From: Polytrichum commune
Lineage: Eukaryota > Streptophyta > Polytrichopsida > Polytrichales > Polytrichaceae
Assembly (NCBI GenBank): GCA_950295325.1
Contig: OX485803.1
Span: 52,777,554-52,841,553, forward strand
DNA: 64,000 nt
Reading direction: 5' to 3'
Each line of letters begins with the position of its first letter. The first letter of the stretch is position 1. The notes beneath the pieces were generated by a model. It saw only the letters and a program-made list of their open reading frames with translations. It made no database searches and had not been told where the DNA came from. A program made the translations under genes and the position numbers. Positions 19,701 to 64,000 of this stretch are shown here, one piece after another.

Positions 19701-22500
19701 ATATTGATCCGACTTGGTCTTCCGATTAACTGGACACTAATCCCCGCACATCCGTTTCTCCGTTCAATTGCCAAAGATATCCTTCTTCGATGGCATAACC
19801 GTAAGACAAGTATACTCCCCGTTGGAAAGTTCGATTAGCCTTGCTACCAATAGCTCTCAGCAACGAGCCTAAACGCCAATTTGCTCGAAAACACTCTGCC
19901 TATAAGGTCTTCGAAAAATAGGATGGTCGTCCTCCAACTGAATGTGGATGGGTTCTTCAAGACCCTAAAGGCTAAAAGAAAAATACCTTCGGTACGAGCG
20001 AATAAACGCTCATACTTTCCATGCCTCAGCACTAGTGAGATGAGGGCATAATTCCAATGGCCAATCATCAAACTTTGTGGTCTCCCTCTCCACCAAAGGG
20101 GAACCACCTGATGTTGACATAGACTCTAACTGCTACTCAGAGGAGGGGGCATTAACCAAAGCAGTATAAACCCGTTGAGCTCAGAGCTCCTCCATTATAT
20201 GTTGCTCGAATCGAAAGATTCGTTCGGCTTCTCCAACCATGACCTCAATTCCCTCCTCCATGAATGTGGACCCCTATGCCCCTTGATTAAAGTCCTCTGC
20301 CCCCACAGACAACAACTGGTCAGTATGATGCCGTTGCAATGCAAGGCATAAACCAATAGTCCATACCATGATATGAAGATCCATGGCTTGGCCCAATACG
20401 AAGTGTCATTGGCCCTCATAAAGGCTAGGAGCTGTGGTAGTGCCAGTGCAGAATCCCATGGCACGCTCCCGTTCGTCAACCAATGATTCAGTGTGGGTTT
20501 TGGTATGAGCATCCCACACCATACCTGGCCCTCGATCGCGGAATGCGAATGACTGTGGAAACGTCATAAAGGTGGGGAAGGCCCTTCGTGGTGTCCCAAC
20601 TTTGTTGACCAATGCCAATGGGGGTAAATCGTCTCGAACAACTGGCAAAGAGGTCCGGTTTGGATCCAAGATGTCATCCACCTTCTGATCAAAATGTGGA
20701 GGCATTGTAGAAAATAGGGTTCTTGGCCATCCAAGGCATGTGCGTCAAAAATACGTAAAGACCTCCGCTGCAAGCCTCGCTCGCCGCTTGGCCACTTTCT
20801 CAAGATCCTCCGTGGTAGGAAGATCAGTGGTGGCTTGAGCCACAGTCAGAGAAGACAGGGATACCTTTCCTTCCAAAATCCTACTTGCTAGGTGAAAAAC
20901 CTTAGCTGGTTGGATGCCGGATGACGACCACTTCATCGTTGTGAATAAAGGTGTGTACAACATTTTGTATGCCAAAGTGAGCACCACGTCGGTCGTCGGA
21001 TTCAAAACCTCCAAGCTCGAATTACGACCACTGATAGATTGGACAACATCCACCAATCCAAAAAACAATGGCAGACGTGCTTGATTAATGTGATCCATGG
21101 GATCATTGTCCCAAGTTCGTAAGCTGTCTACAGACTATCATGTGGTCGAAGGCATGGCTTGTGACACGGATTGAGCACATGTTACCGTTGCGGAACTCAT
21201 TACCTCCCCCGAAGCTCCGAACATATAATAATCTGAAATGGAAGAACTAGCCTTAGCTCCAAAAGAAGACAGTATGTCCAAGATTTGGCCGGATGATGCC
21301 AAATTCTTAAATCTCTCCTCCAAGGCGTCAATTTTTGCCTCCAACATTTTTTCCCGTTCGGAAGAAGGACGTTTATCTGGATGGAGAGCGAAGCAATTCT
21401 TCACCGCGTGATTGTTTTGCCTACAATGAAAACACTTCAACTGTTTGGGTAATTGATTACCCACCCCCTTCATCGAATTCTTAGCATAAACAATTGGTTT
21501 CCACTTCGGATTACATATGATATGGGCTTGCCTTTGCTTCCAAGGACAATTATTTTTAGCGTGGCCCGCCTGCCCACAAGACCAACAATATAAGATCTTG
21601 TCAACCCCTGCCTCCGCCAATCTTGCAACTGCAATCGAAACCTTCCGGCATTTGCTAGAATTCACTAACAAGGACACCAAATCAGTGGCATCGTGTTGAC
21701 ACAACGCACAATCACACTACTTCACAATAGTGAAAATCTTTGCAAGTGTCGTCCGACCACCATAATTCATGATCATCATGGGCAACGCTAAGTCAATGAG
21801 GCGTTTGTCAATCTTTGACAAAAAGACCTTCACTAACTGGTTTTCCGCGAAAACACCGCCAGATTCTCTAACAAATCTCGCCAACCTCGTATACATGGTA
21901 CCAGGTGTGTCTTCTTTCTCCCACCGAAAGTTTTAGATTCACTACATTTGATCCCGGCGGAAACCTCCATATTCCTCCTCCAAATGAAGTTGGAATTCTT
22001 GCAGATGATCAAAAACAGACGGAGTCCTAAAGAGGCTAATGTTACCTATGTAGCCTGGGCATAGCGGGAGAGTGGGAAGATCGGGCTAGACGTACTAACG
22101 GATGCGGAAGCAGGAATTTTTTTCTTAGGTTCACTAAGAAAGACTCCCTCCACGTCTACTATAAAGACGTTCTCTACCTGCTTGCTCCGTCTTCACCATG
22201 GGAGGGGCTAATGAACTAGAAACTGCATCCTCCTTCAACGCGAAAACCAACTCCACCCGAGTTTCCCAGTACCGTTCCACCTGGTGCAGCTCCATCTACT
22301 GAGCATCCCTTCATTACTTATAAGTCTGGAGTGCTTCGTGCTACAAATGTTGGAACAAAAGCTCAAACGCATATCAATAATGAAAATTGGTATTGCGTTG
22401 ACGCTTCTCTTGCATCTATGTCCTAAACTAAATTTTCCAGTCTTGTAGAAAAATGGTCTCTGCTCGACCAGAAAACCGGTCTCGGACTCCACCTCGTGTC
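16731..22500 (-). mobile_element. Ty3/gypsy LTR-retrotransposon fossil with a PHD-like segment
   Basis: Reading leftward on the minus strand, traces of each part occur in order: capsid-type gag (about 22.06-21.7 kb), two CCHC knuckles (CWSCGQAGHAKNNC and CFHCRQNNHAVKNC, 21.2-21.7 kb), reverse transcriptase with a FLGLANYYRRFV motif and RNase H (about 19.8-18.6 kb), integrase with its HH-CC region and core (about 18.4-17.6 kb), an integrase tail, and a PHD-finger-like cluster (CFVC, CDQCQRGW, CPRC; about 17195-17055). A purine tract AAGGGGGGG at 16740-16731 followed by TGTGTTG at 16721 is a candidate for the 3' LTR boundary. The element is old and thoroughly broken, with many breaks across gag and pol. 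The PHD-like module instead of a chromodomain is seen in the sequence; its role is inference. LTR limits are uncertain. Confidence 0.85.
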
Positions 22501-43850: not shown

Positions 43851-43855
43851 GCTGT
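43851..43855 (+). repeat. Target-site duplication GCTGT, left copy
   Basis: GCTGT immediately precedes the outer LTR terminus TGTGAGCCCA at 43856. The same five bases follow the other outer terminus at 57436-57440. Five-base duplications are normal for Ty3/gypsy integrases. Confidence 0.9.
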
Positions 43856-45699
43856 TGTGAGCCCAAAAGGGTGCCCACATTTAGTCTTAGACCCCTGAAA
43901 TGTTAGTTGATGCACTTTGAAGTAGCATGTTACTTCACAAAAATATAAAAAGAGTGAAATGTTAGTCTTAGAAGTACCATGTTGTAAGAGGCTAGGATGT
44001 GAGTTGTTATTGTGTTTTTACCTTCGGAAGGATTTGAGTGAATGAGGATAGGTAAGGAGAACTTGGATTGAGTAGTTAGTGAGTAGGCTAGTACAAATGG
44101 ATGGAGACAACCAAAGTGACTCAAGAGGCAAGTGCATTCGAATTGGGATGAATGGAGGATCACATGGAGCGCACAAGTGGACCACCTCATCATGGCCACT
44201 TAATGGGGAAGGCCCAAGGAAGAATGCAAGGTGGAGGATAAGCAAATTCTCAAAGCACCAATCAAATCACGAGTTAAGCATCGTGGTTTGAATTAAGTGG
44301 TGAGCGACGATTTGGGAAAGTAAGGGGAGAAAGTTATGGCGGCGGAAAGCGAAGGAGGCTAAGTTTGGGTTGAAGCATCCCAAGTTTGGTAAAGTGTGGT
44401 AGGTAGAAAGCCAAGGCTAGTTAAATGTTCGAATTAGGATCCTTGTTGATCATTTGAGGGAGGAAGGCTTAGAAGATAGGATTGGCGCCTACTAAGTAGG
44501 AGGAAATCTCAAGGGCTTATCGTGAGCCTTGAGGGTGCTCACCCCCTCAAGCTTACTATATAATCCCTCATTCTTCCCTCACTCATCCTCTCTTTCTTTT
44601 GTGCTCCAAGGCACCCCACGAGTTATAAGTGTGGGTGTGGGAAGCCATATTGGAGCACATGTGTGTGCTTAGTTTTTAGTTTGAGAGCCAAGGCTTGTTA
44701 GCCTTGAAGAGGGCTTGACCTCTTGGTAGAATTAGTGTTGACGTGAAGGATTTTAAAGTTAATTCATGATTCCAATTTGTGGTACTTAAAGTTCATGTTT
44801 TGAATACACGTGGTTGCAAGTTCCATGTTTAAGAGTTGAGCACTTGATGTTGTGATGAGTGCAAAAATATACTTGTGTGGATTAGTTAGTCTTAGTGAAG
44901 TTAGGAAATTCTCTCTCCCCCTCTCCTCTCTAGGATTTTAGGATTTTAGGATTAGAGAAGAATTGTGTGATTAGAAAGGGGTTGTTAGTAGAATTAGGGA
45001 AATTAGGTAGGAAGATTAGTTAAGGGCTTGAATAATTAGTGAGGTAGTTGGGGATTACAACTACAAAGTTGTGGGTTCATGAAGGAGCTGGGTTTATGAA
45101 GGAGCTGGGTTTGTTTAGTTAGAAAGTAAAGAGCTGGGTTTATGAAGGACCTGGGTTTGTTTAGTTAGAAGCTAAGGAGCTGGGTTTATGAAGGAGCTGG
45201 GTTTATGAAGGAGCTAGGTTTATGTAATTAGAAAGTAAAGAGATGGGTTCATGAAGGAGCTTAGTAGATAGCCTACCTAATTAGCTCATAGACAAATAGT
45301 TAGTTACATTATGCTAGTTAGTGTTATGTGTGGCTTTCACAAGTAAATGTATTTGAGATTGACTATAGAGAATAGTGTTTTTTTAACACTTGCATCCTCT
45401 CTTTAAAAATAAACCACGTGCACAAATTAATGGAGAATGTGGAGCACTCTCGCGATGGCAAGACAAAGGAAGCAAAGACCAAAGGTGCGAGGGAGAGATT
45501 GACATAAGTCACATAAGTATTTCTTAATACTTAAAGGCTTATGTACGGTATGGAGACACCAATTAAATCCAAGACCACTTGAAGGGTGAACCTTGCACTA
45601 TGGACTCATCCAAGTCCAAATCCAATACCGCGGAGGAATGTGAGCCCAAACCCACTACTCGGACTACGGACGCTTAAGGGTGGGGGGTTTGGCCTCACA
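43856..45699 (+). repeat. Outer LTR, left arm (1,844 bp)
   Basis: The LTR starts TGTGAGCCCA and ends GGCCTCACA, forming short inverted termini (TGTGAG/CTCACA), and is followed after four bases by the primer-binding site. A TATA-like ACTATATAAT at 44556-44565 precedes a CT-rich tract and is a candidate promoter. A minisatellite occupies 45072-45262. Confidence 0.88.
45072..45262 (+). repeat. Minisatellite within the LTR, left arm
   Basis: About nine variants of GGAGCTGGGTTTATGAA, some extended by TTTAGTTAGAAAGTAAAGA, follow head to tail. The mirror copy is at 56029-56219. Confidence 0.85.
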
Positions 45700-45703
45700 T
45701 AAT

Positions 45704-45721
45704 TGGTGCGTCCGCCGGGAG
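45704..45721 (+). promoter_or_regulatory. Primer-binding site, probably tRNA-Gly type
   Basis: TGGTGCGTCCGCCGGGAG lies four bases after the LTR end. Its complement matches the 3' end of plant tRNA-Gly(UCC) as I recall it at 17 of 18 positions. The mirror copy is at 55570-55587 on the minus strand. Confidence 0.65.
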
Positions 45722-46608
45722 CGAAGCGGAAGGTAGTTACAAGACTTGGAGGCGACTAGGAGACTTGGAGGCAACTAGGAAAAATTGGAGACACAAACTT
45801 GAGAGAAGGGAAGGAGCACCCGAAACTCGGTAAGTATTCTCTCTTTGGGTTACATTTGAATTCATTGTATTTCAACTATTCCTTGGAATGAATTGCATTG
45901 TCAATTACGCAAATTCATTTTTGAGGAAGGAGCGCGGCGAAGGTACGTCCTCAACCTTTTTGGGGATTTGCTAAGAACTTAAAAGGAACCTATAACCGAG
46001 TAGCTCATTAAAACATTAGAGGGTAAATTCACCTTAGGACATTGAACTTTGACACTCACCTCGGGGTGAGTCTCAAAGTTTTGGGAGTTGTCATTTCATG
46101 CTCTAGATTAAATTAATATTTCACAAAGTTTATGGTGTTGTTACATTGAGTCACGATTGAGGGGAGTGCTAACTCACAGGGGGATGCGATTGCTCAAGGT
46201 ATGTTTATTTCTTCAAAGTGAACTCATTAACTAATTAAGGAATGTCTTTTGTACTCGTGATTGTTGTTATCCGTTGTAGAGGGTAATTCCCGAATTGTGG
46301 ATGGTGTGAGAAGTTGAAGGGTGAAGCCTCGACTTTTAACATAATCTACTCGGAAGGTCACCCCCTCACAATCGGTATTGTGGTGAGTGTTAATTTGCGG
46401 AAAGGTGCGGAGGTGATGCTCCGACTTAACCAAAAAATTAACATGAACATGCCTATCCCCTATTGGGATTCTTTCACCTAAGTGGGCTTGCAGGTTCTTT
46501 TCCTCACCTCCTAAAAAAATTATAACCACACCAAGACAAGTGAAAATATTAAGAGGGGAATTGCTAGGATTATGTGTGGTCAAGTGAGGGTCGATCGATT
46601 CTTATGGA

Positions 46609-49600
46609 ATGCAAGGTAGGACTCGCTCACAAAAACCAAGTTTGATAGTAGGACTAGAGAAATCTACTCGAAAGAGGCGGTCCTCTAAAATCAGTGATAG
46701 ATTAGAACAAGATAATGTTAGAATAGAGAGTTGTTTGAACGTCGAACCTAGGACTAGGTCAATCCTAGACACCTTAGAACTTGGAGCTCAACTTGAAGAG
46801 GAGATCACTCCCTCCAAATTGAGTGGTGAAACTTCTTCGGAAAATTACACACTTAGAGAAGAATTCCCGGTAGAAGTTGATAGGGGATTGTTGAATAGTT
46901 CACCGGTCACCATGGCCGAGGAACGGGGGATGGATCCACCACCCATACCCCCAATTCCGCCCATACCTCCTATACCTCCAATAGACCCATTGGTTAGGCC
47001 AAGAGGCCTACCAATTGTGGTTCCACAAAATTTAGCGGCGATGGATATGCCATCTCATCTCCCTAAATTTTATGGGACCAAGGATGAAGACCCCTCTCGG
47101 CACATGGAACGGTATATCGAACGGTTGGCTAGCTTCCTCATAACCGACCCGGGTTATTGGTTAGTGTGGTTTCCTACCACTCTAGAGGGGGAAGCCTATA
47201 AATGGTATCGGGATCATGCCGAGGGACATTTTAGGGGATGGGAACAATTACAAAAGGAGTTTCTTAACGAATTTAGGCCGGAAGTGGGTCAAAGTACCGC
47301 ATTAAGGGCATTGTCGTCATTGAAGCAAGGAAGGGAGGAAGAAATTTCGGCTTACATTAGGAGGTTTGATTTAGTGTGCACTAGATTTGTGGGTACCATG
47401 CTCAACGACGACACGCTAAAGCAATTTTTCATTCAAGGGTTTTTTAAGTCCGGAACTATTAGGGGTGTTCTAGAAAGGAATCCCTTGACCTTGGCGGATG
47501 CCAAGCGTGCGGCTAGAGATATTGAAAACTTGGATAAAGATCACGAAAGGCTATGGAGAAGGGAGGATGAATTGATCCCACAATTCATCCCCATACGCCC
47601 TAGGGTGGTAGCGGTAGAACCCGCTAAGTATGAGAACCAAATTCCATATGCCATTGTGGACACCGGTCCCCGACCTTTAGCGGTTAGGGAACCGGCACCT
47701 CTTTTGGCACTACCGGCCCCTAGAACGGATCCACACTTGGAGGAGGTTGAGAGAAGACTAGGTGCTAGCCAACTAGGATTCCAAGAGGCTATGATAAAAC
47801 AAATGCAAAGCCTCACGGATCAAATGTCATTAATGATCTGGAGTCAACAACCGGGGCCTCCACCCCCGGTTGAGTCGGGTAGGCATTCTTCCGGATTATG
47901 GTGTGTCCAATGTGGCCAACCGGGCCACACGCGTCAATTTTGTAGAAGTGGACAAAACCGTGACCAAAGAGGAAACGGTAACCCACCTCAACAAAATCAA
48001 CGAGGTCAAGCGCCACCTCACTATGGAAATGGAAGCAATAGAGGACCACAACCTAGAGGGCAAGGTGGCCAAAATTTAGAGAAGAAGGAATTTCATCCCT
48101 TTTGTGGAAGGTGGCACGCTCAAGGACAATGTTGGTCCGAAGGTCAAGAGTTTAATTGTAGCAATTGTGGAGGAAGTCATCCCTCGGATACGTGTCGCCA
48201 ACCGGACAAAATAATTAATGTCCCTTACCCGGTGGCTAATCCACAACAACAAGCAAGGGATAATATGCGAGGTGCTAGGCCACAAGGAGTACCGGCCAAT
48301 GAACTTAGGCCACCTAACTTATACTATGACCATAGTAATGCTAGGCAAACTTTTCATCCACCGGCGGGCTTGCAAACTACAACCGGTTACATTCCAATAC
48401 AAAATAGACAAGGAGTTCCACCTAATGGTAGTAACGGGAGACAAGCGCCTCCAACGGATCCGGGACCATCTAACTCCCAAGATGTTAGGTTCATGGATGG
48501 AGTGTTGGAGGCCACATGTGATGACATGCTTCCTCTCCCAACGAGAATTGGAGAGGAGCAAAGTCAATGGCCTCCTCACACCAATGCTATTACATATGAG
48601 TTAGTGAAGGGTAAGGGTGTGGTTGAAGAAGCACCTGCACTAGCGGTAACTACTAGGGCTAGGAGAGGGGATGCCCCGTTGGAGGTAGGAATAGGAGAGC
48701 AAGGAAATTACTCTTCGGATGAAGAGATTAATCTCTCCGAGTTGGATAGGGTAGCTAGAAGAGCTACTAAGGATGTGGAGAGGGAAAATATAATTTTACA
48801 AGATAGGGAGAGGACTAATGCGGTACATGACTTGGATAATAGCGATGTGGGTGAATGGGAAGGACCGGGGGTTCCCGTAGACGAATTCGACGTAGTGGGT
48901 AATTCTAAGGTGGAAAGATCTACCGGGTACGACTTGTGGGCGGACCTTAGTACACTCAAGGCGGATATTACTTTCGGCCAACTATTGGAAATTTCACCCA
49001 CGGCAAGGAAAACATTAAAGGAGGGAATGCCGGTACACAAGAGGATGAGGAAGGTGAAAGCTAAAATAGCCGCTAGGATCCAATCACAAGGTGGAAGAGA
49101 CGTGAAAGCTATAGAAATAGAAGTTGTTATAGTAGATAAGGTGGTTCCTAATGTGCTAGTCGACGGAGGGAGTAGTCTAAATATACTACCGGAGGATACT
49201 ATGAAAAAATTGGGACTTGGACTCACGGGGCCTTCACCTTTGGTCATAAATATGGCAAATCAAAGTTCGACTACGCCTTTGGGGATGATCAAGGATTGTA
49301 GAATGACTACGGGAGGTGAGCAGTACTTGGTCACCTTCCATGTCATTAAAATGCACTCCAACAAGGACACCTTCCCCATTTTGCTAGGTAGGCCTTGGTT
49401 GCGGATGGCGAATGCTATGGTCAATTGGGGTGGACCTAAACCATCCATCACTTATGGTCCGGAGGGTAATAGGGTCATAGTGTCCATTGGTTCATTAGAA
49501 GGATGGATGAAGAAGGAGATGTATTTGCCATTGGAGAAGGAAATTGATGACTTAAACGAGAATGAGATTGGCAAAACATTGGTGGGAGTCGTCCATCCCG

Positions 49601-51786
49601 AAGGTCAAAGGGTTGTTATAGATTCGGGCTCGGGAAGTCTAGGTCCTAATTTTTACAATTATGGGGATAATGGGGATTATGCCCAATGGCTAAGGGAGTA
49701 CCCCGAGTCCGAGGTTGATGTAATGGTTACATTTCACCAAGTAGGCTTAGGGAGTGAATTTCCTAGTGTTAGTTTAGGAGAGGGCTCATTGTTGGAGCCA
49801 TGTGAGGTGCTCACCGAGGAAGAGTGGGTTAGCGGTGGGTTAACACCTTGGGTAGATGACGTGGAAGAGGGTGAGGTTAGTTTAATTCATGTAGATGGGA
49901 CTCAAGAGGAGGATGTGATTATTGAGTCATCGAAATTGGAGGAGCCTTTACATTTCAAGACCACGTCTACGGGGATAGTTGTAGGTCAAGATGTGAAAGA
50001 TTACCCCAATGTGCCTTCCGATTGGTATCGGAACAAAGAGGAACAAGCACATGTGTCGGAAGCGGATTGGCGGTACGTGGATGTGAAATTAAAGAATGGA
50101 AAAACCCGACAAATGAAGATGGGCTCCAAATTGGGGGAGAAAGAGGTTAGGGAGTATAGCAATTTGGTGGATGAGTTTAGTGATACTTTTGCATGGTCCT
50201 ACGATGAGCTTAAGGGAATTCCTAGGGAAATGGTAGAGCACCGGATTCCTTTAATTCCGGGGGCGAGGCCAATTAGACAAAAGGAGAGGAGGATGAATCC
50301 TCAATTGCAATTGTTGGTGAAAGCGGAATTGGAAAGGTTATTGAAGGCCGGGTTTATCAAGCCGGTGGAAATCACGGATTGGGTTTCTCCTATGGTCTTA
50401 GTAAAGAAAAAAAATGGGAAATTAAGGGTTTGTGTCGACTATAGGAAATTGAATTCGTGCACACAAAAGGATCACTTCCCCTTACCTTTTATCACCTTGT
50501 TGCTTGAGGAGGTTGGAGGTCATTCGCGATATACCTTTATGGATGGGTATGCGGGTTATAATCAAATTTCCATAGCCCTCCAAGATATCCATAAAACGGC
50601 TTTTACTACACCTTGGGGTACTTTTGTGTGGGTAGTGATGCCATTTGGGTTATGTACTGCCCCGGCTACTTTCCAACGATTAGTAATGTATATCTTCACC
50701 GACTTGTTGTTCAAATCCATGACCGTCTTTGTGGACGATTTTAGCACACAAAGTAATGTGGATGATCACCTACATTGTGTTAGGGAGGCATTGGTTAGGT
50801 GTAGGAAGATGAGGTTAGCATTGAACCCGGATAAGACATTTTTGGGAGTGAATAAGGGAGTGTTGTTGGGTTATGTTGTTAGTGAGAAAGGTAGAGAACC
50901 CGATCCGGATAAGATTGCGGCCATAAGCGACTTGGCAACTCCAACCAATTCCAAGGGGATCTCTAAGTTGTTAGGACATGTGGGATGGTACCGGGAACTT
51001 ATTCCTAATTTTTCAAAGATAGCGGTGCCCATTACCCATTTGCTCAAAAAGGATGTCAAATTCGAGTGGACGGATGCTTGTCAAAAAGCCTTTGAGGAAT
51101 TGCGGGATAGGTTGAACACCTATCCGGTGTTGATACCACCCAATTGGGGTAAACCTTTTCACGTCTATTGTGATGCTAGTAATGTGGCAATAGGGAGTGC
51201 GCTTTGTCAAGCAACGGGAGAAAAAGAGAAGGATCAACCTATAGCTTATGCGAGTAAGCAATTGACCCCCGCCGAAAGAAACTACTCTACAACGGAGAGG
51301 GAGTGCCTAGCCATGGTGTTTTCCGTTAAAAAGTTTAGACATTACCTCATGTGCAACCCGGTTGTATTTTTTGTTGACCACATGGCTATCAAGTATCTAA
51401 TTAACAAGGCGGAGTTAAGTGGTAGGTTAGCTAGGTGGGTTTTGTTATTAGAAGAATTCGACTACACGGTGGAATATAAACCGGGTCGTATGCATTTACA
51501 AGCGGACCACTTGTCTAGGTTGTCGGAGGAGATAGGAAAAAATCCGGTAAATGATATGTTAGTAGATGATAGCCTCTTTGTGGTCACTTCTACACCGGAG
51601 TGGTATGCGGGCATAGTGGAATTTCTAACAACCCACAAGTTGCCCAAAGAGTGGACAAAAGAAGAGAGAAGGAAGGTGAGGGTAAATAGTAGGCAATTTG
51701 TTGTAGTGGGCCATAGGTTGTTTAAAAGGGGGTCCGATGGTATTTTACGACGATGCGTGTCAAAAACGGAGGTTGAAGCGATTTTA
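46609..51786 (+). mobile_element. gag-pol reading frame of the left arm and centre (fossil part)
   Basis: One open frame encodes gag and pol together. In order: a proline-rich PPIP repeat at about residues 110-125, a capsid-type gag domain at about 150-310, CCHC knuckles CVQCGQPGHTRQFC at about 433-446 and CSNCGGSHPSDTC, an aspartic protease with VLVDGGSSLNI at about 855, reverse transcriptase with FVDDF at about 1375, and RNase H with the YCDASN motif. Fused gag-pol frames are usual in several plant gypsy lineages. The frame reaches the edge of the single-copy centre, where the mirrored arm begins. Confidence 0.88.
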
Positions 51787-54682
51787 ATCCTTCTAATGAA
51801 CCAATGGACACTATGACCCTATTACCCTCCGGACCATAAGTGATGGATGGTTTAGGTCCACCCCAATTGACCATAGCATTCGCCATCCGCAACCAAGGCC
51901 TACCTAGCAAAATGGGGAAGGTGTCCTTGTTGGAGTGCATTTTAATGACATGGAAGGTGACCAAGTACTGCTCACCTCCCGTAGTCATTCTACAATCCTT
52001 GATCATCCCCAAAGGCGTAGTCGAACTTTGATTTGCCATATTTATGACCAAAGGTGAAGGCCCCGTGAGTCCAAGTCCCAATTTTTTCATAGTATCCTCC
52101 GGTAGTATATTTAGACTACTCCCTCCGTCGACTAGCACATTAGGAACCACCTTATCTACTATAACAACTTCTATTTCTATAGCTTTCACGTCTCTTCCAC
52201 CTTGTGATTGGATCCTAGCGGCTATTTTAGCTTTCACCTTCCTCATCCTCTTGTGTACCGGCATTCCCTCCTTTAATGTTTTCCTTGCCGTGGGTGAAAT
52301 TTCCAATAGTTGGCCGAAAGTAATATCCGCCTTGAGTGTACTAAGGTCCGCCCACAAGTCGTACCCGGTAGATCTTTCCACCTTAGAATTACCCACTACG
52401 TCGAATTCGTCTACGGGAACCCCCGGTCCTTCCCATTCACCCACATCGCTATTATCCAAGTCATGTACCGCATTAGTCCTCTCCCTATCTTGTAAAATTA
52501 TATTTTCCCTCTCCACATCCTTAGTAGCTCTTCTAGCTACCCTATCCAACTCGGAGAGATTAATCTCTTCATCCGAAGAGTAATTTCCTTGCTCTCCTAT
52601 TCCTACCTCCAACGGGGCATCCCCTCTCCTAGCCCTAGTAGTTACCGCTAGTGCAGGTGCTTCTTCAACCACACCCTTACCCTTCACTAACTCATATGTA
52701 ATAGCATTGGTGTGAGGAGGCCATTGACTTTGCTCCTCTCCAATTCTCGTTGGGAGAGGAAGCATGTCATCACATGTGGCCTCCAACACTCCATCCATGA
52801 ACCTAACATCTTGGGAGTTAGATGGTCCCGGATCCGTTGGAGGCGCTTGTCTCCCGTTACTACCATTAGGTGGAACTCCTTGTCTATTTTGTATTGGAAT
52901 GTAACCGGTTGTAGTTTGCAAGCCCGCCGGTGGATGAAAAGTTTGCCTAGCATTACTATGGTCATAGTATAAGTTAGGTGGCCTAAGTTCATTGGCCGGT
53001 ACTCCTTGTGGCCTAGCACCTCGCATATTATCCCTTGCTTGTTGTTGTGGATTAGCCACCGGGTAAGGGACATTAATTATTTTGTCCGGTTGGCGACACG
53101 TATCCGAGGGATGACTTCCTCCACAATTGCTACAATTAAACTCTTGACCTTCGGACCAACATTGTCCTTGAGCGTGCCACCTTCCACAAAAGGGATGAAA
53201 TTCCTTCTTCTCTAAATTTTGGCCACCTTGCCCTCTAGGTTGTGGTCCTCTATTGCTTCCATTTCCATAGTGAGGTGGCGCTTGACCTCGTTGATTTTGT
53301 TGAGGTGGGTTACCGTTTCCTCTTTGGTCACGGTTTTGTCCACTTCTACAAAATTGACGCGTGTGGCCCGGTTGGCCACATTGGACACACCATAATCCGG
53401 AAGAATGCCTACCCGACTCAACCGGGGGTGGAGGCCCCGGTTGTTGACTCCAGATCATTAATGACATTTGATCCGTGAGGCTTTGCATTTGTTTTATCAT
53501 AGCCTCTTGGAATCCTAGTTGGCTAGCACCTAGTCTTCTCTCAACCTCCTCCAAGTGTGGATCCGTTCTAGGGGCCGGTAGTGCCAAAAGAGGTGCCGGT
53601 TCCCTAACCGCTAAAGGTCGGGGACCGGTGTCCACAATGGCATATGGAATTTGGTTCTCATACTTAGCGGGTTCTACCGCTACCACCCTAGGGCGTATGG
53701 GGATGAATTGTGGGATCAATTCATCCTCCCTTCTCCATAGCCTTTCGTGATCTTTATCCAAGTTTTCAATATCTCTAGCCGCACGCTTGGCATCCGCCAA
53801 GGTCAAGGGATTCCTTTCTAGAACACCCCTAATAGTTCCGGACTTAAAAAACCCTTGAATGAAAAATTGCTTTAGCGTGTCGTCGTTGAGCATGGTACCC
53901 ACAAATCTAGTGCACACTAAATCAAACCTCCTAATGTAAGCCGAAATTTCTTCCTCCCTTCCTTGCTTCAATGACGACAATGCCCTTAATGCGGTACTTT
54001 GACCCACTTCCGGCCTAAATTCGTTAAGAAACTCCTTTTGTAATTGTTCCCATCCCCTAAAATGTCCCTCGGCATGATCCCGATACCATTTATAGGCTTC
54101 CCCCTCTAGAGTGGTAGGAAACCACACTAACCAATAACCCGGGTCGGTTATGAGGAAGCTAGCCAACCGTTCGATATACCGTTCCATGTGCCGAGAGGGG
54201 TCCTCATCCTTGGTCCCATAAAATTTAGGGAGATGAGATGGCATATCCATCGCCGCTAAATTTTGTGGAACCACAATTGGTAGGCCTCTTGGCCTAACCA
54301 ATGGGTCTATTGGAGGTATAGGAGGTATGGGCGGAATTGGGGGTATGGGTGGTGGATCCATCCCCCGTTCCTCGGCCATGGTGACCGGTGAACTATTCAA
54401 CAATCCCCTATCAACTTCTACCGGGAATTCTTCTCTAAGTGTGTAATTTTCCGAAGAAGTTTCACCACTCAATTTGGAGGGAGTGATCTCCTCTTCAAGT
54501 TGAGCTCCAAGTTCTAAGGTGTCTAGGATTGACCTAGTCCTAGGTTCGACGTTCAAACAACTCTCTATTCTAACATTATCTTGTTCTAATCTATCACTGA
54601 TTTTAGAGGACCGCCTCTTTCGAGTAGATTTCTCTAGTCCTACTATCAAACTTGGTTTTTGTGAGCGAGTCCTACCTTGCAT
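51787..54682 (-). mobile_element. Mirrored gag-protease frame, right arm (fossil part)
   Basis: The minus-strand frame from 54682 repeats the left-arm gag, knuckles and protease residue for residue. It belongs to the second arm of the palindrome and is not an independent gene. Confidence 0.9.
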
Positions 54683-55591
54683 TCCATAAGAATCGATCGA
54701 CCCTCACTTGACCACACATAATCCTAGCAATTCCCCTCTTAATATTTTCACTTGTCTTGGTGTGGTTATAATTTTTTTAGGAGGTGAGGAAAAGAACCTG
54801 CAAGCCCACTTAGGTGAAAGAATCCCAATAGGGGATAGGCATGTTCATGTTAATTTTTTGGTTAAGTCGGAGCATCACCTCCGCACCTTTCCGCAAATTA
54901 ACACTCACCACAATACCGATTGTGAGGGGGTGACCTTCCGAGTAGATTATGTTAAAAGTCGAGGCTTCACCCTTCAACTTCTCACACCATCCACAATTCG
55001 GGAATTACCCTCTACAACGGATAACAACAATCACGAGTACAAAAGACATTCCTTAATTAGTTAATGAGTTCACTTTGAAGAAATAAACATACCTTGAGCA
55101 ATCGCATCCCCCTGTGAGTTAGCACTCCCCTCAATCGTGACTCAATGTAACAACACCATAAACTTTGTGAAATATTAATTTAATCTAGAGCATGAAATGA
55201 CAACTCCCAAAACTTTGAGACTCACCCCGAGGTGAGTGTCAAAGTTCAATGTCCTAAGGTGAATTTACCCTCTAATGTTTTAATGAGCTACTCGGTTATA
55301 GGTTCCTTTTAAGTTCTTAGCAAATCCCCAAAAAGGTTGAGGACGTACCTTCGCCGCGCTCCTTCCTCAAAAATGAATTTGCGTAATTGACAATGCAATT
55401 CATTCCAAGGAATAGTTGAAATACAATGAATTCAAATGTAACCCAAAGAGAGAATACTTACCGAGTTTCGGGTGCTCCTTCCCTTCTCTCAAGTTTGTGT
55501 CTCCAATTTTTCCTAGTTGCCTCCAAGTCTCCTAGTCGCCTCCAAGTCTTGTAACTACCTTCCGCTTCGCTCCCGGCGGACGCACCAATTA

Positions 55592-57435
55592 TGTGAGGCC
55601 AAACCCCCCACCCTTAAGCGTCCGTAGTCCGAGTAGTGGGTTTGGGCTCACATTCCTCCGCGGTATTGGATTTGGACTTGGATGAGTCCATAGTGCAAGG
55701 TTCACCCTTCAAGTGGTCTTGGATTTAATTGGTGTCTCCATACCGTACATAAGCCTTTAAGTATTAAGAAATACTTATGTGACTTATGTCAATCTCTCCC
55801 TCGCACCTTTGGTCTTTGCTTCCTTTGTCTTGCCATCGCGAGAGTGCTCCACATTCTCCATTAATTTGTGCACGTGGTTTATTTTTAAAGAGAGGATGCA
55901 AGTGTTAAAAAAACACTATTCTCTATAGTCAATCTCAAATACATTTACTTGTGAAAGCCACACATAACACTAACTAGCATAATGTAACTAACTATTTGTC
56001 TATGAGCTAATTAGGTAGGCTATCTACTAAGCTCCTTCATGAACCCATCTCTTTACTTTCTAATTACATAAACCTAGCTCCTTCATAAACCCAGCTCCTT
56101 CATAAACCCAGCTCCTTAGCTTCTAACTAAACAAACCCAGGTCCTTCATAAACCCAGCTCTTTACTTTCTAACTAAACAAACCCAGCTCCTTCATAAACC
56201 CAGCTCCTTCATGAACCCACAACTTTGTAGTTGTAATCCCCAACTACCTCACTAATTATTCAAGCCCTTAACTAATCTTCCTACCTAATTTCCCTAATTC
56301 TACTAACAACCCCTTTCTAATCACACAATTCTTCTCTAATCCTAAAATCCTAAAATCCTAGAGAGGAGAGGGGGAGAGAGAATTTCCTAACTTCACTAAG
56401 ACTAACTAATCCACACAAGTATATTTTTGCACTCATCACAACATCAAGTGCTCAACTCTTAAACATGGAACTTGCAACCACGTGTATTCAAAACATGAAC
56501 TTTAAGTACCACAAATTGGAATCATGAATTAACTTTAAAATCCTTCACGTCAACACTAATTCTACCAAGAGGTCAAGCCCTCTTCAAGGCTAACAAGCCT
56601 TGGCTCTCAAACTAAAAACTAAGCACACACATGTGCTCCAATATGGCTTCCCACACCCACACTTATAACTCGTGGGGTGCCTTGGAGCACAAAAGAAAGA
56701 GAGGATGAGTGAGGGAAGAATGAGGGATTATATAGTAAGCTTGAGGGGGTGAGCACCCTCAAGGCTCACGATAAGCCCTTGAGATTTCCTCCTACTTAGT
56801 AGGCGCCAATCCTATCTTCTAAGCCTTCCTCCCTCAAATGATCAACAAGGATCCTAATTCGAACATTTAACTAGCCTTGGCTTTCTACCTACCACACTTT
56901 ACCAAACTTGGGATGCTTCAACCCAAACTTAGCCTCCTTCGCTTTCCGCCGCCATAACTTTCTCCCCTTACTTTCCCAAATCGTCGCTCACCACTTAATT
57001 CAAACCACGATGCTTAACTCGTGATTTGATTGGTGCTTTGAGAATTTGCTTATCCTCCACCTTGCATTCTTCCTTGGGCCTTCCCCATTAAGTGGCCATG
57101 ATGAGGTGGTCCACTTGTGCGCTCCATGTGATCCTCCATTCATCCCAATTCGAATGCACTTGCCTCTTGAGTCACTTTGGTTGTCTCCATCCATTTGTAC
57201 TAGCCTACTCACTAACTACTCAATCCAAGTTCTCCTTACCTATCCTCATTCACTCAAATCCTTCCGAAGGTAAAAACACAATAACAACTCACATCCTAGC
57301 CTCTTACAACATGGTACTTCTAAGACTAACATTTCACTCTTTTTATATTTTTGTGAAGTAACATGCTACTTCAAAGTGCATCAACTAACATTTCAGGGGT
57401 CTAAGACTAAATGTGGGCACCCTTTTGGGCTCACA
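55592..57435 (-). repeat. Outer LTR, right arm (1,844 bp, inverted)
   Basis: Exact mirror of 43856-45699. The outward terminus, read from the right on the minus strand, is again TGTGAGCCCA, so both ends of the insertion are the same LTR end. Its minisatellite lies at 56029-56219 and its TATA-like site near 56726-56735. Confidence 0.88.
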
Positions 57436-57440
57436 GCTGT
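57436..57440 (+). repeat. Target-site duplication GCTGT, right copy
   Basis: Directly adjoins the right outer LTR terminus (...GGGCTCACA|GCTGT). Outside these five bases the two flanks are unrelated to each other, so the mirror symmetry stops exactly at the insertion boundary. Confidence 0.9.
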
Positions 57441-58042
57441 ACTGCCGGAGCGAAAGTTGCAGCTGTAACCAGGCCACAGCTGCGGTGAAAGTACATTGCT
57501 GCTGCTACTCGGACTCTAAACCCAGATCGGCGACCTGTGGTGTGTGCCTACAGAGAAGCTGCAAGCAAACACAAGCAGCTGCTGGAGTGCTGGAGCAACT
57601 ACTTGGAGCTATTGAAGGTGCACCAGAAATTCGAGCTGCTGAAAGGGTATTGGGCAACGAAATCCCATCCCAAGTAGGAGGGAGTTCGAGGTGCTGCGAA
57701 GGAGAGGAGCAACCCCAACAAAATACTGCCCGAGCTAAACCAGGTATCACTCAAAACCCCCACTTAGATAGGCACTTAGACACATAGAGAACACACACAC
57801 AAACGAAACAAACTAAAATCACAGTAGATACACACTTAATCAATTAGAAACACACACACACATTAGTTAACTAGGCACTTAGCTTCTTTTTGCTCCCTAA
57901 AAGTAGAAGTAGTTTTGCTGCCCTTCATCCGCTTGGTAAATTTACACGTTAATTTGTTTTCTCATTACTTGCACATAGGCACACACATAGTCTTAGACAC
58001 ATCATAGCATTGATAGGTTTGTTAGGATAGTAAGCAAAATGA

Positions 58043-58060
58043 AGGTTGCATATGCAACCT
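58043..58060. repeat. Perfect 18-bp palindrome
   Basis: AGGTTGCATATGCAACCT is its own reverse complement. It lies 15 bp from a second perfect palindrome. Confidence 0.9.
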
Positions 58061-58075
58061 ACCTTGTTATCATTA

Positions 58076-58095
58076 TGTGGCTAGTACTAGCCACA
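58076..58095. repeat. Perfect 20-bp palindrome
   Basis: TGTGGCTAGTACTAGCCACA is its own reverse complement. It could be a dimer-binding site or a hairpin in the LINE RNA; the function is unknown. Confidence 0.9.
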
Positions 58096-58605
58096 CCATG
58101 CTGGATATACTCTCATAGTGTCAACTCTCACACCACATGGGAATGCCTTACAAACTCTTGCTTTAAAAACACATATAAGAACGTCATAAAACCAAAGGTA
58201 TGGTATAACAACCTTAATGTTCATATCATAAATGAATGTTCCATTAGAAATAATGGATCCGTGGTAGTAACGGTAGATGCTTGTGCTTTTAGTTATACTT
58301 GCCTCAAATGCTTAGGAGATGTATGGAATGGTAGAGTTGTGACAAATCATAATCTACATAAGAGCACTTACAACCAATTTGTAAATACTAATATGAAGAT
58401 TCATATGAATAGGAAAAGGTGTTATAGGATGAATGCAAGTAGTACTCATATGATGTTAGAACATGCAAATCACTTCTTCTTTCACTCTCAATTCCTAGGA
58501 GGCCCACAACTTAATTTGTGGAAAGGAATTAGAGGAAAGAAAATAAGAAGTATACCTCATTCAAAACTAAAGTACAAAACGTTTGTTTGCTTTGCTTATA
58601 TCAGA

Positions 58606-60225
58606 ATGGCAACCATCACTCCAACCTCATCATCCCGTAAGTTGTTTGAAAATGAAAATATAGATTCTACAAGTGGAAAACGTCCAGTGCTTGATGTGGT
58701 ATTGTCAAGTCAAAAAAATGTTAAAGGAATAGCACCCACTGAGAGAACACGCCCCCCCTATTGGCTTGGTTTTCAAGCTATGAACACAATTGCAAAATTT
58801 GCCAACATGCCTCTCATTCAAACACCTTCTTTCACTGAGTTAGTCAAAAAAGGCATGTGTGAGTCTGAAGCACATGAAATGGTGGAGTCATCCCCCTCCT
58901 TTCCGTTCGTTGCCCAAGAAGAGTGGCCTTCTATACGAACGGATGGTAAGGAGGGAATGCACTACAATCTCACCCAGATTCCTTTAGATGTGGAAGTGGG
59001 TGACCATGGATTTGCTTTGGACTATCACATATCTATCCATTTTGAAATTGAAAGAATAGAATTGGATAGAGATGTGATACTCAACTTAACAAAGGATAAA
59101 CTAAAAACAATGAAAATAGAGGTCGGGGAAGTCTTAGGAGAGCCCATAGCTGTCCTTTGTTTTCATGGGACCAAAAGATGGAGTGGAATTATTAAACTCC
59201 ACCTTAAAAACCCTGAAATGGATGGATATGGCCTTCTCTGTGGATTGAGACCTTTCATCCTCAAGCTTGGCTGATTTACACATGCTATAGGCAAAGTGTG
59301 TAAATCCTTTGATACCATTGCAATTGCATCCATGCTCTCCGTCAAAGTCACAACCCCGTCAATCAAGGGTAAAGAATGGTATGATTTGTTTGTAGAAATA
59401 GTTGGGGATGGATTTCGACGTGGCCTTGACTTTGAAATAACGAATGTGCAAAAATCGGTGGATGCAGAGTTTGCTTGGATTAAAGCACCCTCTCCAGAGG
59501 AAGCCAAAAGAATTAAAGCACTCAAACTTTCGTTTTTCAATGAAATAGTAGATGTAAACTTTGCAAGTAACGAAAAACTCTCAGAAGATGATAAAGCCCG
59601 AAAGAATGCACTCATTCTAATTGCCCGTAACCTCAATAAGGTAAAAACAACCATGCAAATCAAAGAAGGAATCCGAAAATGCATGGGAGAACTAAATGTT
59701 CTCGGTTTTTACTTTAAACTTGAGAACGGGAAGCATACGGGCTCATGCAATGTCCAATGCCTCAACTCGTTTGTCTACAAGAAATTTGTTAAGAAAAATG
59801 AAAAAATATTTAGTAAATATGTTGAATTTACCCCCCATCCAAAAAGTCTAGACGGGATAAATGCACCTAGTAAAGAAGAGCTAGTTAGACTTGGATTTTC
59901 AGACGTGAACACCACACTTGCAAACACCATCCAAGCTCTGGAGAATGGACCGCACCAAAACATCACCAACAAAGATCTCAACAAGATGGTAGAAGCAGCG
60001 GTAAAAAAGAGGACGGATGAAATACGAAAAGAAATGGTGAACCTTAAAGGTGAGATTGTGCAAGAGGCAAAAGTTTATGCCGACCATGTGCTAGCGGAGT
60101 CAAACAAGAATTCCAAGCTCCAAATACAACGCCTTCAAAGGCAAATGAAGATTACCTTGGATGCTATCGAAGCGGCTCATCCGGACATATCGGAAATTGA
60201 AAACAATATGGACTTGACAAACTAA
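58606..60225 (+). pseudogene. LINE ORF1-like protein with one in-frame TGA
   Basis: From ATG 58606 (context CAGAATGGC) one frame runs to the stop at 60225, interrupted only by TGA at 59272-59274. Before it come KRWSGIIKLHLKNPEMDGYG and RPFILKLG; after it FTHAIGKVCKSFDTIAIAS and AEFAWIKAPSPEEAKRIKAL. The position ahead of an endonuclease/reverse transcriptase ORF and the charged, coiled-coil-like C-terminus (KKRTDEIRKEM..LKGEIVQEAK) fit an ORF1 nucleic-acid-binding protein. I do not recognise the domain and see no zinc knuckle. Base use is ordinary here (all four bases well represented), unlike ORF2. The TGA is most simply a nonsense mutation; read-through cannot be excluded from sequence. Confidence 0.6.
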
Positions 60226-60347
60226 TTTCGACAAACATCCCGGCGGCGTACAATTATAAATTACTAATAGTATATTTATATACTAAAAACAAAAATATTA
60301 TTACATTATTAATATATACTAAAAATAAAACCCTACCTATAGTATTC
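60226..60347 (+). other. AT-rich spacer between LINE ORF1 and ORF2
   Basis: About 120 bases of AT-rich DNA with repeated TATACTAAAAA-type motifs; no promoter or gene is evident. Confidence 0.5.
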
Positions 60348-60461
60348 ATGAATACTATAACCTCAAAAATTCACAAAGAAAACCCCCCCAACACCTCACA
60401 AAAACAAATCCAATTACTCACAATACAACAATATCCTATCCAATACAACAAAGTACACAAT

Positions 60462-60788
60462 ATGGCCTCGGCCTACCGGCCTCGCCACGAAATAAAACTA
60501 ACAAGATATATACACCACCACTCCCTCAACCCCATCATTAACACAATCACAAAGCCTACCCACCAACATACTAGACCTATACACTACCTACCAAAAACTA
60601 CACAAAAAACAATAATTGCCTTACCTAATCTATTCACAAAAAGTAAATATAAACTACTCACCTTAAATAAACCTCACCTCAACATCAAACACCATCACAA
60701 ATCCTATTTCAAACACCTATTAAACCCTTATTCAAAATACCAACCTCACCCAAAAGATACAATGGCCTCGGCCTACCGGCCTCGCCAC
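60462..60788 (+). repeat. Two identical 27-bp GC-rich islands 300 bp apart
   Basis: ATGGCCTCGGCCTACCGG followed by CCTCGCCAC occurs identically at 60462-60488 and 60762-60788, encoding MASAYRPRH each time. The units they head have otherwise diverged; the later parts still align weakly (ALPNLFTKSKYKLL against AIPNLFTTTKFTII). The islands stand out against the AT- and A/C-rich surroundings. Confidence 0.9.
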
Positions 60789-61025
60789 ACAAATAATAAC
60801 ACATACCACTTCATAAAATACTGGAGACCTAACTCAATAACAAGCCAAAAATCTATAAAAAATACAAACTCACACTTCTCACCCAAACAAATAGAAAACA
60901 TCATACCCGCTATACCTAACCTCTTTACTACAACCAAGTTCACAATCATAATGTATCTAAAACCAAACATGAAAAATCCAAAAACACTCCATTTCCACGG
61001 ATACTATTTTATTAACAAACTAGAA

Positions 61026-61064
61026 TTGCTAAAATGCGGAGACATAGAACCCAACCCCGGACCA
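61026..61064 (+). other. 2A-like ribosome-skipping motif in LINE ORF2
   Basis: The codons read LLKCGDIEPNPGP. GDIEPNPGP (61038-61064) satisfies every position of the 2A consensus (G/H)D(V/I)ExNPGP. In known 2A peptides the ribosome fails to form the last Gly-Pro bond, giving two proteins from one frame. Here that would release the duplicated leader from the endonuclease/reverse transcriptase. Confidence 0.85.
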
Positions 61065-64000
61065 ATGCCTAACATCCTACATACACACCCTGCTACACAA
61101 AAAAAAAAAGCCAACATCTACTTCATTCCAAACACTATAAAACTACAACCTGAATACCAACACATAGCAAATACATTTGCCCCCATACTAAAAAACACAC
61201 ACCCACTACACCCTCAAGCAATAACCACCTACCCGCATCTACATCAATATATCCAAACACAAAGGCAATCACCACTAACCCATATGCTATACGCTCTAAT
61301 CATCACCATCCACCCCTCAATAGACACATGCAATAACATACTAGCCCAACCCCAAAATTACCACTTTAATAACATATGGACGAACACATTGATTATCAGA
61401 CTGGTCAACCTCACCAACCCCCCCGAAAGGCATATATCAGCACCTCACCCCTACACAACTTTTGTAGAAAACAATCAAGATATAATATACCCAAAAAATT
61501 CAATACACACAGAGATATATGAATTTATCCACAACCAAGATACTACACCAACACCAATTACCCTTCAAAATAAATTTCCCTTCCTCCCAAATCAATTTAT
61601 CACCGAAGCACTCCGATGCCTAGAAAGCATCAACGAATATTCACACCCACCCCCACCCCCAGCTACTCCCACACCAACCCCAAGAATTAACAACGACACC
61701 GAACACGAAACAAACATAATAACATGGAATGCGTCATCACTCAACACATCATTACCAAACCTACAAAGCCTAATAAACAACTCGCTAAACAACACAGCAA
61801 TCATACATATCCAAGAAACCAAACTAACTGCAAATAAATCTACAAAATACATACAAAACCTATTTCCAGAATTTAAATTCATTTTCAACAACACACATGC
61901 ACTCACAAGATGCATACAACAAAGAATGCCTTATACCCCCGGAAGAGGAGGCTTACTCACACTTATCCACAAGAAATATGCATTCCCTAGGAATATCACC
62001 AAAATTCCCACGCCAGTAAATATATCCCCATACCTACAAATAATTAAAATAAACAATCATCCACTAATACCTTCGCTAATCATACACATGTACATGCCTA
62101 CACACTTAGAAGACACATGCCTCATTCCACACCTTAAGAACGAAATCACTAACGAAATCACTATACACCCCAATCACATGTATACATTATGTGGGGACTT
62201 TAACCGAGATATCGCACTTAGAGGCAGACAAAATAACAACATTAATACCCCCCCACAAGAAGAAGATTACCAATGGAAAATTTTCACCGCATCACTCAAC
62301 CTACAATATATCCCAACTAACACTAGCATCTCCAGACAAGGAGGCTATAATTACACATCAACAAGTCTAATAGATGGATTCTACATTCACTCACCAGACA
62401 ACAGTAAATTCATTTCTACCACAAACACAAACATGAATCTAAATTCAGACCATTATCCAGTTGTACTACATATCCCCCATAACACCCTTATAGCCAGATC
62501 CCCACCCCCACAAACACGTCACCAACTAGAATACTAAACCCAATACCACCAGAAAACATCGAAAAATTCAACATAACATTCTTCAAAGAAAACTCTGCAC
62601 AAATAAAAGCCCTTACCACCCTACTCGAAAACCACCAACACCTAAGCCCGGATCAATGGGCGGAAGCCTGTACAACATTCGACCACATTGTATACAAAAT
62701 TTCAGAAACAATTGAAGAAACCTGTAAAGCAGACTCACTACCCAACCTTACGAACAGAACAACACAACAAGGCGGGTTTTTGCCACGCAAACTTGCGAGA
62801 AAATAGAAAAGACACCTCAACACATATCACCTCATCAGGAAAACCATATACATTGCACAACACGATCCACTCTGGCAAGCACACCCAATTCTAAACGATA
62901 TACGAAACCACCAACACACAAACATCCCACACCCACCTGTTACAACGGCACCTCCTACTGAATGGATTGATGCCATAGCAACCATCGCAAAAAATGCAAA
63001 TAAAGAAGCCAGGAAAATCACCACAAAATACACCAAAGACTGCATTCTAAAGGCCGTATCAAAATACCGTCAAATGTATGAAAAAAGCCCCAAACAGATA
63101 AATCGAAAAGTCTTCAAGAACACTGAAACCTCACCCCTGGATTCCATTATTGATAGACAAAATAATATATTAACCAACCCAGATGACATCGCAGCAGAAA
63201 TATACACGCAACAATTCATCAGTAACCGTCCTACAGTTCCCACATGCCAATATCAAAATACACACCCACTACACTGCACATGTGGAATCCGGCAATATCC
63301 ATGGCATGACTTAGACGGATACATCATTGACAAACAAGGAGAACCCTAAACCCCCCTACACACGTATTTTGACCAAGAAACATACGACTTTTGTCTTAAA
63401 CACCTAAGTAATAATAAAGCCCCAGGCCCAGACAAAATACCCAATTCAATTCTAAAAAACATGCCTCCATGCTTCCATAAATTACTCTTCTTATTTTTTA
63501 AACATTGTTATAAACAAAAACAAATCCCTGCATCATGGAAAACCAGTCTAACAGTTTCACTATACAAAAAAGGTAACCCATCACAACTAATAAACCATAG
63601 ACCTATTCCACTAGCTAACACCATATATAAATTCTACACGAGTACATTAACTTCTATCCTATCAGCGTATGGAGAAAAATACCAAATATTACACGATAGT
63701 CAAGAAGGGTTTAGAGCAGAGAGAATCACTTCTAGAAAAATCCAATTATTAATCGCAGCGCTTGAAGACGCAAGACTCACGAACCAAGATATATATATCC
63801 TTTACATTGACTTCAAAAACGCCTTCGGCTCCATTGATCACGCCAAACTTTTAGCCATAATGAAATATCTGGGATATCCCACTGACTCCATAAATCTCAT
63901 AGGAAACATATATTCACAATCCTCAACAATATTCACTGGTGAACACTTCGGTAAAACCTTACCAATCCCCATTCAAAGAGGTACAATACAAGGTGATACC

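Follow-up and report, generated by a model that had tools for sequence, protein, structure and literature searches.

A near-perfect palindrome with two U3 ends from a Polytrichum commune Ty3/gypsy family, most likely formed as mirror-image cDNA before integration

The window, a stretch of 64,000 nt of Polytrichum commune DNA, carries at positions 43856-57435 a near-perfect inverted repeat of 13,580 bp built from a long terminal repeat (LTR) retrotransposon, with arms of 5,649 nt around a centre of 2,282 nt. The copy is a derivative of a Ty3/gypsy family and no intact member of it, and both of its outer ends are starts of the unique 3′ (U3) region of the LTR. Most likely, a mirror-image complementary DNA (cDNA) was formed before integration. 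Three further palindromes (L059, L060 and L068) were found in the assembly, where the original prediction, made from the letters of this stretch, had proposed to look for other mirror-image members. New here is that U3-U3 palindrome formation recurs in the family, as judged from the assembled insertions. Fold-back of a plus-sense cDNA strand, opening of the hairpin by second-strand synthesis and one-step integration of the resulting palindrome, taken as the whole explanation, has a probability of roughly two in three.

The arms pair by the symmetry x <-> 101291-x with 0 indels, exactly as originally described, and their sole mismatch is 47088 A versus 54203 C, i.e. 1 in 5,649 nt. This site is E3233 in element coordinates (E), which are counted from the left end with E1 at window position 43856. 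Arms of such length and identity cannot be explained by chance. The pentamer GCTGT directly adjoins both ends of the palindrome in the same orientation, as had been predicted; two given 5-mers match by chance about 1 time in 1,024 (plain arithmetic, equal bases). Mirror symmetry ends at the element ends, the outer 40 nt matching in mirror at 7/40 positions. The outer termini read TGTGAG...CTCACA, and AATTA, which precedes the 3′ LTRs in the other family copies compared, is absent at both ends, as would be expected after integrase trimming. Neither mark of a genomic inverted duplication was seen, i.e. no mirror symmetry extending into the host flank and no unmatched or swapped outer duplications. 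The arrangement found is that of a template-switching complex insertion, a matched duplication around a rearranged element after one integration. The claim that a mirror cDNA was integrated as one unit is supported by the matched duplication, the unmirrored flanks, the integrase-type ends and the three further palindromes, each with its own 5-bp duplication, and also by the contrast with five differently built inverted pairs of the family described below.

The features of the palindrome, in window positions, are as follows.

43851-43855, no strand: left copy of the target site duplication GCTGT
43856-49504, plus strand: left arm E1-5649, with LTR, primer site, leader, gag and protease
43856-45699, plus strand: LTR E1-1844, TGTGAG...CTCACA, U3 start outermost
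45639-45699, plus strand: LTR-terminal hairpin E1784-1844 (mirror copy 55592-55652, minus strand)
45704-45722, plus strand: primer binding site TGGTGCGTCCGCCGGGAGC after TAAT (mirror copy 55569-55587, minus strand)
46609-51816, plus strand: open reading frame (ORF) for gag, protease, reverse transcriptase and ribonuclease H (RNase H), its final 30 nt beyond the joint, within the right arm
49505-51786, plus strand: single-copy centre E5650-7931
51786-51789, no strand: inversion joint, ATC at 51787-51789 fitting both templates
51722-54682, minus strand: inverted ORF for gag and protease, extending past the joint
51787-57435, minus strand: right arm, the reverse complement of E1-5649 with one mismatch
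55592-57435, minus strand: inverted LTR, U3 start outermost, mirror of the left LTR
57436-57440, no strand: right copy of the target site duplication GCTGT

The window copy thus consists of E1-7931 fused to the reverse complement of E1-5649, and it has no 3′ LTR. Pfam matches in the ORF at 46609-51816 are Retrotrans_gag, Asp_protease_2 (just under the cut-off), RVT_1 and RT_RNaseH, the centre together with the arm encoding reverse transcriptase and RNase H; the inverted ORF at 51722-54682 matches gag and protease, the latter just at the cut-off. There is no integrase in the window copy. In the ordinary copy L031, Integrase_H2C2 and rve lie downstream of RNase H, and the joint falls ~9 residues into the zinc-binding match of that integrase. 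The domain order gag, protease, reverse transcriptase, RNase H and, by way of L031, downstream integrase is that of Ty3/gypsy elements. TG...CA ends and a 5-bp target duplication are present in the window copy, and TGGTGCGTCCGCCGGG follows TAAT on the 3′ side of the 5′ LTR as a primer site, presumably one that fits a plant transfer RNA (tRNA) for glycine. The LTRs of the window copy are inverted, whereas those of the ordinary copies are direct. LTR length differs among copies, from about 1.6 to 2.2 kb, through a minisatellite and a ~250-nt indel; the minisatellite lies at 45072-45261 in the window and occurs in other copies.

The first 35 nt of the LTR have 920 exact occurrences in the genome. 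Matched 5-bp duplications were found in six two-LTR copies, namely CAAAG (L004/L003), CCTTG (L010/L011), CAAGG (L016/L017), TGTAG (L020/L021), CACTA (L024/L023) and AATGC (L027/L028), and also at seven solo LTRs (L009, L012, L015, L018, L019, L026 and L029). Duplications are unmatched at L005, L022 (4/5 letters) and L025, and L006/L007/L008 have exchanged flanks; L013, L014 and L030, whose partner sequence was not compared, were left out of this tally. The GCTGT pair therefore has the normal length for the family. In ordinary copies among the loci compared, the 5′ LTR runs on into TAAT and the primer site, and AATTA stands before the 3′ LTR. Three same-direction LTRs at equal spacing were noted at C7:39267937-39286498 (9,181 nt) and C1:23574010-23592124 (9,040 nt), as in tandem elements that would share an LTR.

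At the window joint, the ordinary element reads ...TTTTA ATC GCTT, the source of the inverted arm ...CATCC ATC CTTC, and the palindrome ...TTTTA ATC CTTC; hence, 3 nt (ATC) are common to both templates. Among the best 40 of 683 candidates for a 200-nt query across the joint, the sole full-length match is the window locus; at the other 39 of those 40 places, the match is confined to the left half of the query and runs to position 103 or 106.

Further palindromes were sought as outward-facing LTR starts in (+,-) order, in lists read by eye and incomplete. For the plain pattern, the survey took in 100 of 920 places (C1 to 59 Mb). Of the starts with a preceding T, G or C, it covered 100 of 137, 100 of 216 and 100 of 174, respectively, and a 33-nt start with a preceding A, TA excluded, was covered at 76 of 76 places; L059 was found through a separate search. 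Nine pairs of outward U3 starts, at most 29 kb in size and with the window pair among them, were examined; in four of these, the mirror arms stop at a matched duplication. The three outside the window are the following.

L059: 3,351 bp, duplication ACTTC, mirror identity of the outer flanks 11/40
L060: 3,821 bp, duplication GGGGA, mirror identity of the outer flanks 10/40
L068: 3,565 bp, duplication CCTCG, mirror identity of the outer flanks 9/40

In L068, E1-1783 is followed by the reverse complement of E1-1844. L059 is joined in the same way, the switch lying somewhere in the hairpin stem. A 301-nt query across the L068 centre gave near-full matches at L068 and L059 only (best 40 of 1,322 candidates). 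The segment E1784-1844 forms a hairpin (-29.8 kcal/mol for E1780-1844 with RNA parameters), and the CA that terminates the LTR is its 3′ end. The joints of L059 and L068 are the product that would arise if a CA-ended strand folded on this hairpin at the unique 5′ (U5) end of the LTR and copied back. L060 has identical arms of 1,904 nt and a loop of 13 nt; its central 31 nt include a ~15-nt piece that is found 18 nt further down in ordinary LTRs (by eye). Since two independent broken ends are hardly expected at the same nucleotide, L060 argues for fold-back. Additional LTR pairs ~30 to 35 kb apart were listed at C1:434742/466011, C1:692561/722778 and C3:35563278/35597938.

Five other inverted family pairs have no matched outer duplication and bear marks of genomic rearrangement. 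Several candidates, most of them suggested by the spacing of their LTRs, were rejected as palindromes of the window type. At L075 (C4:5268330-5273960), the mirror enters host DNA (40/40 nt) and there is no matched duplication. The region C2:54.73-54.75 Mb (C2:54733300-54752780, L071-L074) has its U5 ends outward and a mirrored host flank (597/597 nt). Both are inverted duplications of host DNA with a family LTR at or near the breakpoint. The outer U3 ends of L061 (C1:13976900-13985350) are unmatched, with a mirror identity of 6/40. There, the outer ordinary element (L061/L064) is flanked on both sides by GAGGC, and its leader harbours its 3′ LTR a second time, inverted, beside inverted host sequence, which matches the right flank of the element (by eye, the full 3.6 kb being unaligned). 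At C1:56.90-56.93 Mb, the duplication CCAAC adjoins the 5′ end of one element and the 3′ end of an opposite one (one 3′ flank unseen); at C3:54.27-54.30 Mb, GTTAT is common to L008 and L006, as after inversion; C3:32.3 Mb holds two unrelated insertions. As read from their flanks, the contrast cases reflect rearrangement at a later time or insertions that happen to be neighbours, and the four palindromes are without such traces.

The proposed course of events is as follows. A plus-sense cDNA strand of the Ty3/gypsy element, begun at the U3 end, would lose its normal template, fold back on itself through 3-nt pairing and be copied to its own U3 end. The resulting hairpin would have a 5,649-bp stem and a 2,282-nt loop, and a second round of synthesis would open it to a linear palindrome ending in U3 on both sides. 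Integrase would then trim the extra nucleotides at both ends and insert the molecule in one step, duplicating GCTGT. On the family joints of L059, L060 and L068, fold-back is the best-supported route as far as the sequences go. What the sequences show directly is the structure with its duplication, trimmed ends and joint, together with three further cases in the family; the choice between fold-back and joining, the strand that folded, the order of the steps and the opening of the hairpin are all inferred.

Several observations weigh against fold-back as the full account. The window joint pairs over 3 nt only, with a loop of 2,282 nt, so that microhomology joining of two cDNAs explains it equally well. 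E182-453 is missing from one L059 arm, and a short inverted filler of unexplained source flanks the ~15-nt piece in the L060 centre. The hairpin intermediate is deduced from finished insertions, and no opening step is seen. The terminal CTCACA is common to the inverted U3 end and the normal U5 end and could hide a later copying joint. Moreover, no ordinary parent copy was found by the rare-allele search and the comparison with L069 described below, and one molecule and two molecules of one source are therefore indistinguishable.

Three other explanations were weighed. Two incomplete cDNAs of the same source, ending at E7931 and E5649, might have been linked through their tails by microhomology end-joining, the two U3 ends then serving for integration. 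Retrotransposon particles carry two RNAs, the joint has 3 nt of shared sequence, the two parts end at different points, and the same matched duplication would be predicted. However, variants absent from the other loci compared are common to both arms, so that one source is required, the L060 arms end at the same nucleotide (13-nt loop), and the U5 hairpin is where L059 and L068 have their joints, places at which two independent broken ends would hardly come together. Such joining is an unlikely, though serious, alternative. Fold-back, among the routes listed in the original prediction, gained from the hairpin joints of L059 and L068 and the short loop of L060, and tail-to-tail joining, also listed there, keeps a minor share of the probability for the window copy. 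It is decidedly improbable that an ordinary insertion came first and that later repair of a chromosomal break, or a template switch, replaced its 3′ part with an inverted 5′ copy. Post-integration inverted rearrangements of the family do exist in the genome, and with CTCACA shared, the outer joint could coincide with the extreme end of the element, but each of four separate loci would need two joints, of which the outer would have to fall no more than 6 bases from the end. Further, L075 and C2:54.73-54.75 Mb mirror into host DNA and L061 has inverted host DNA, from which the four palindromes differ by their matched duplications and unmirrored flanks. An assembly or library artefact is the least credible explanation and very improbable: assembly may be confused by a family this young, whose LTR start has 920 exact occurrences, but the symmetry stops at four different matched 5-bp duplications in four places with differing joints, the 2,282 nt of centre in single-copy order and the 3-nt joint are unlike a missed-adapter read, and the palindrome lies in a 77.9 Mb contig.

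The variants of the arms point to both having stemmed from one source sequence. Variants common to both arms were found in 0/13 (E2390), 0/12 (E2546) and 0/8 (E2909) other loci compared, some of these loci belonging to one copy. At E3233, the left arm has A, and the right arm, L032 and L069 have G; A was found in 0/8 other loci. Apart from the two arms, the 35-mer with the rare allele A at E1441 is present only in the two LTRs of a single C4 element (L069). L069 was rejected as the parent, given 23 mismatches in 6,234 columns against the left part, 11 in 3,952 against the right arm, and changes of LTR structure. The shared-variant pattern favours one template molecule, without proof. The ~250-nt LTR deletion was rejected as private to the palindrome: it appeared in 0/28 other loci at first and then in at least 11 other exact places genome-wide. 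The first 1.2 kb of the LTR is uninformative, 42 of 378 pairs being identical among 28 loci picked by similarity. With an assumed substitution rate of 1.3e-8 per site per year, the single change in 5,649 sites would give an insertion age of the order of ten thousand years.

The LTR edges of the family are unusual. The 3′ LTR is not immediately preceded by a polypurine tract: of the 20 nt next to it, 7 are purines in 4/4 sequence versions (20 hits, not all from separate copies; the window copy has no 3′ LTR). The sequence there reads GGATTCATCCCCCGATGGTCGCCA-ATTATGTGAG (L031:3440-3590, same edge in other copies), and the place of the polypurine tract is occupied by the CCA-ended stretch CGATGGTCGCCA, which presumably resembles a tRNA 3′ end. 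ARAGORN found no tRNA gene in L031, L040, L043 and L069; it detects whole tRNAs, so that this result has no bearing on a tRNA-like primer site. The U3 edge CCAATTATGTGAG is the exact 13-nt reverse complement of the U5 edge CTCACATAATTGG. A literature search for families without a polypurine tract gave no match. Conceivably, though this is a doubtful proposal, the mirror-image edges, the strong LTR hairpin and the CCA-ended, tRNA-like stretch in place of the polypurine tract make fold-back cDNA a recurrent, integrating by-product of this family. If a tRNA primed both strands, both ends would be equivalent to integrase, and self-primed hairpins would be completed and inserted as U3-U3 palindromes. 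Such palindromes would then serve as ready sources of hairpin RNA with the capacity to silence the family.

DIRS elements use a tyrosine recombinase and make no target duplication. DIRS-like elements share with the window copy inverted terminal repeats on a reverse-transcribed element; unlike them, the ordinary copies of this family encode a retroviral-type integrase, a duplication is present, and the inverted form is rare and aberrant. The rve match in L031 and the matched duplication are not those of a DIRS-like element, no search aimed at a tyrosine recombinase having been made. In vitro, reverse transcriptases make snap-back (self-primed) cDNA, in which the 3′ end folds back and primes the complementary strand; that is a product of the test tube, whereas here finished genomic insertions are repeated. 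Mu killer, a name connected with Slotkin and the year 2005, is reportedly an inverted transposon duplication that starts silencing. It is likewise a transposon inverted repeat potentially giving hairpin RNA, but it is a DNA transposon rearranged in the genome, whereas the window palindrome is an LTR element known from its sequence alone.

A close parallel is that of Sabot and Schulman 2007 (PMC1950507), where aberrant reverse transcription led to oversized cDNA that was integrated as a unit with a 5-bp duplication. The template-switching complex LTR retrotransposons of that paper, as its main text presents them, share with the window copy the one-unit integration of aberrant cDNA with a 5-bp duplication. 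They differ in having three direct LTRs and U3/U5 outer ends, whereas the window element has an inverted copy, U3 at both ends and no 3′ LTR; no inverted case is described in that main text. The portions consulted of PMC11624286, PMC12368964, PMC12312487 and PMC12112155 have no bearing on palindromic LTR elements beyond a citation of Mu killer, and no case of a palindromic or inverted-LTR element was found in the literature searched (a single library).

The recurrence suggests that a cDNA bounded by U3 on both sides, and lacking a U5 end, is accepted by integrase in nature and has been inserted repeatedly. The U5 hairpin offers a defined fold-back site, so that self-priming in retrotransposition becomes testable. 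Long LTR-ended palindromes are candidates for fragile sites and for loci that give rise to hairpin RNA against a young family. Programs that seek direct LTRs would miss U3-U3 palindromes.

Elsewhere in the window, a second, degraded retroelement with RNase H-like and zinc-knuckle fragments lies at 18798-21704 on the minus strand, and Nodulin-like and NFD4 Pfam matches occur in window ORFs. Just right of the insertion, at 58039-62537 on the plus strand, are three consecutive ORFs (411, 309 and 729 aa) with no Pfam match. From 60 kb onward, the base skew of the window shifts sharply.

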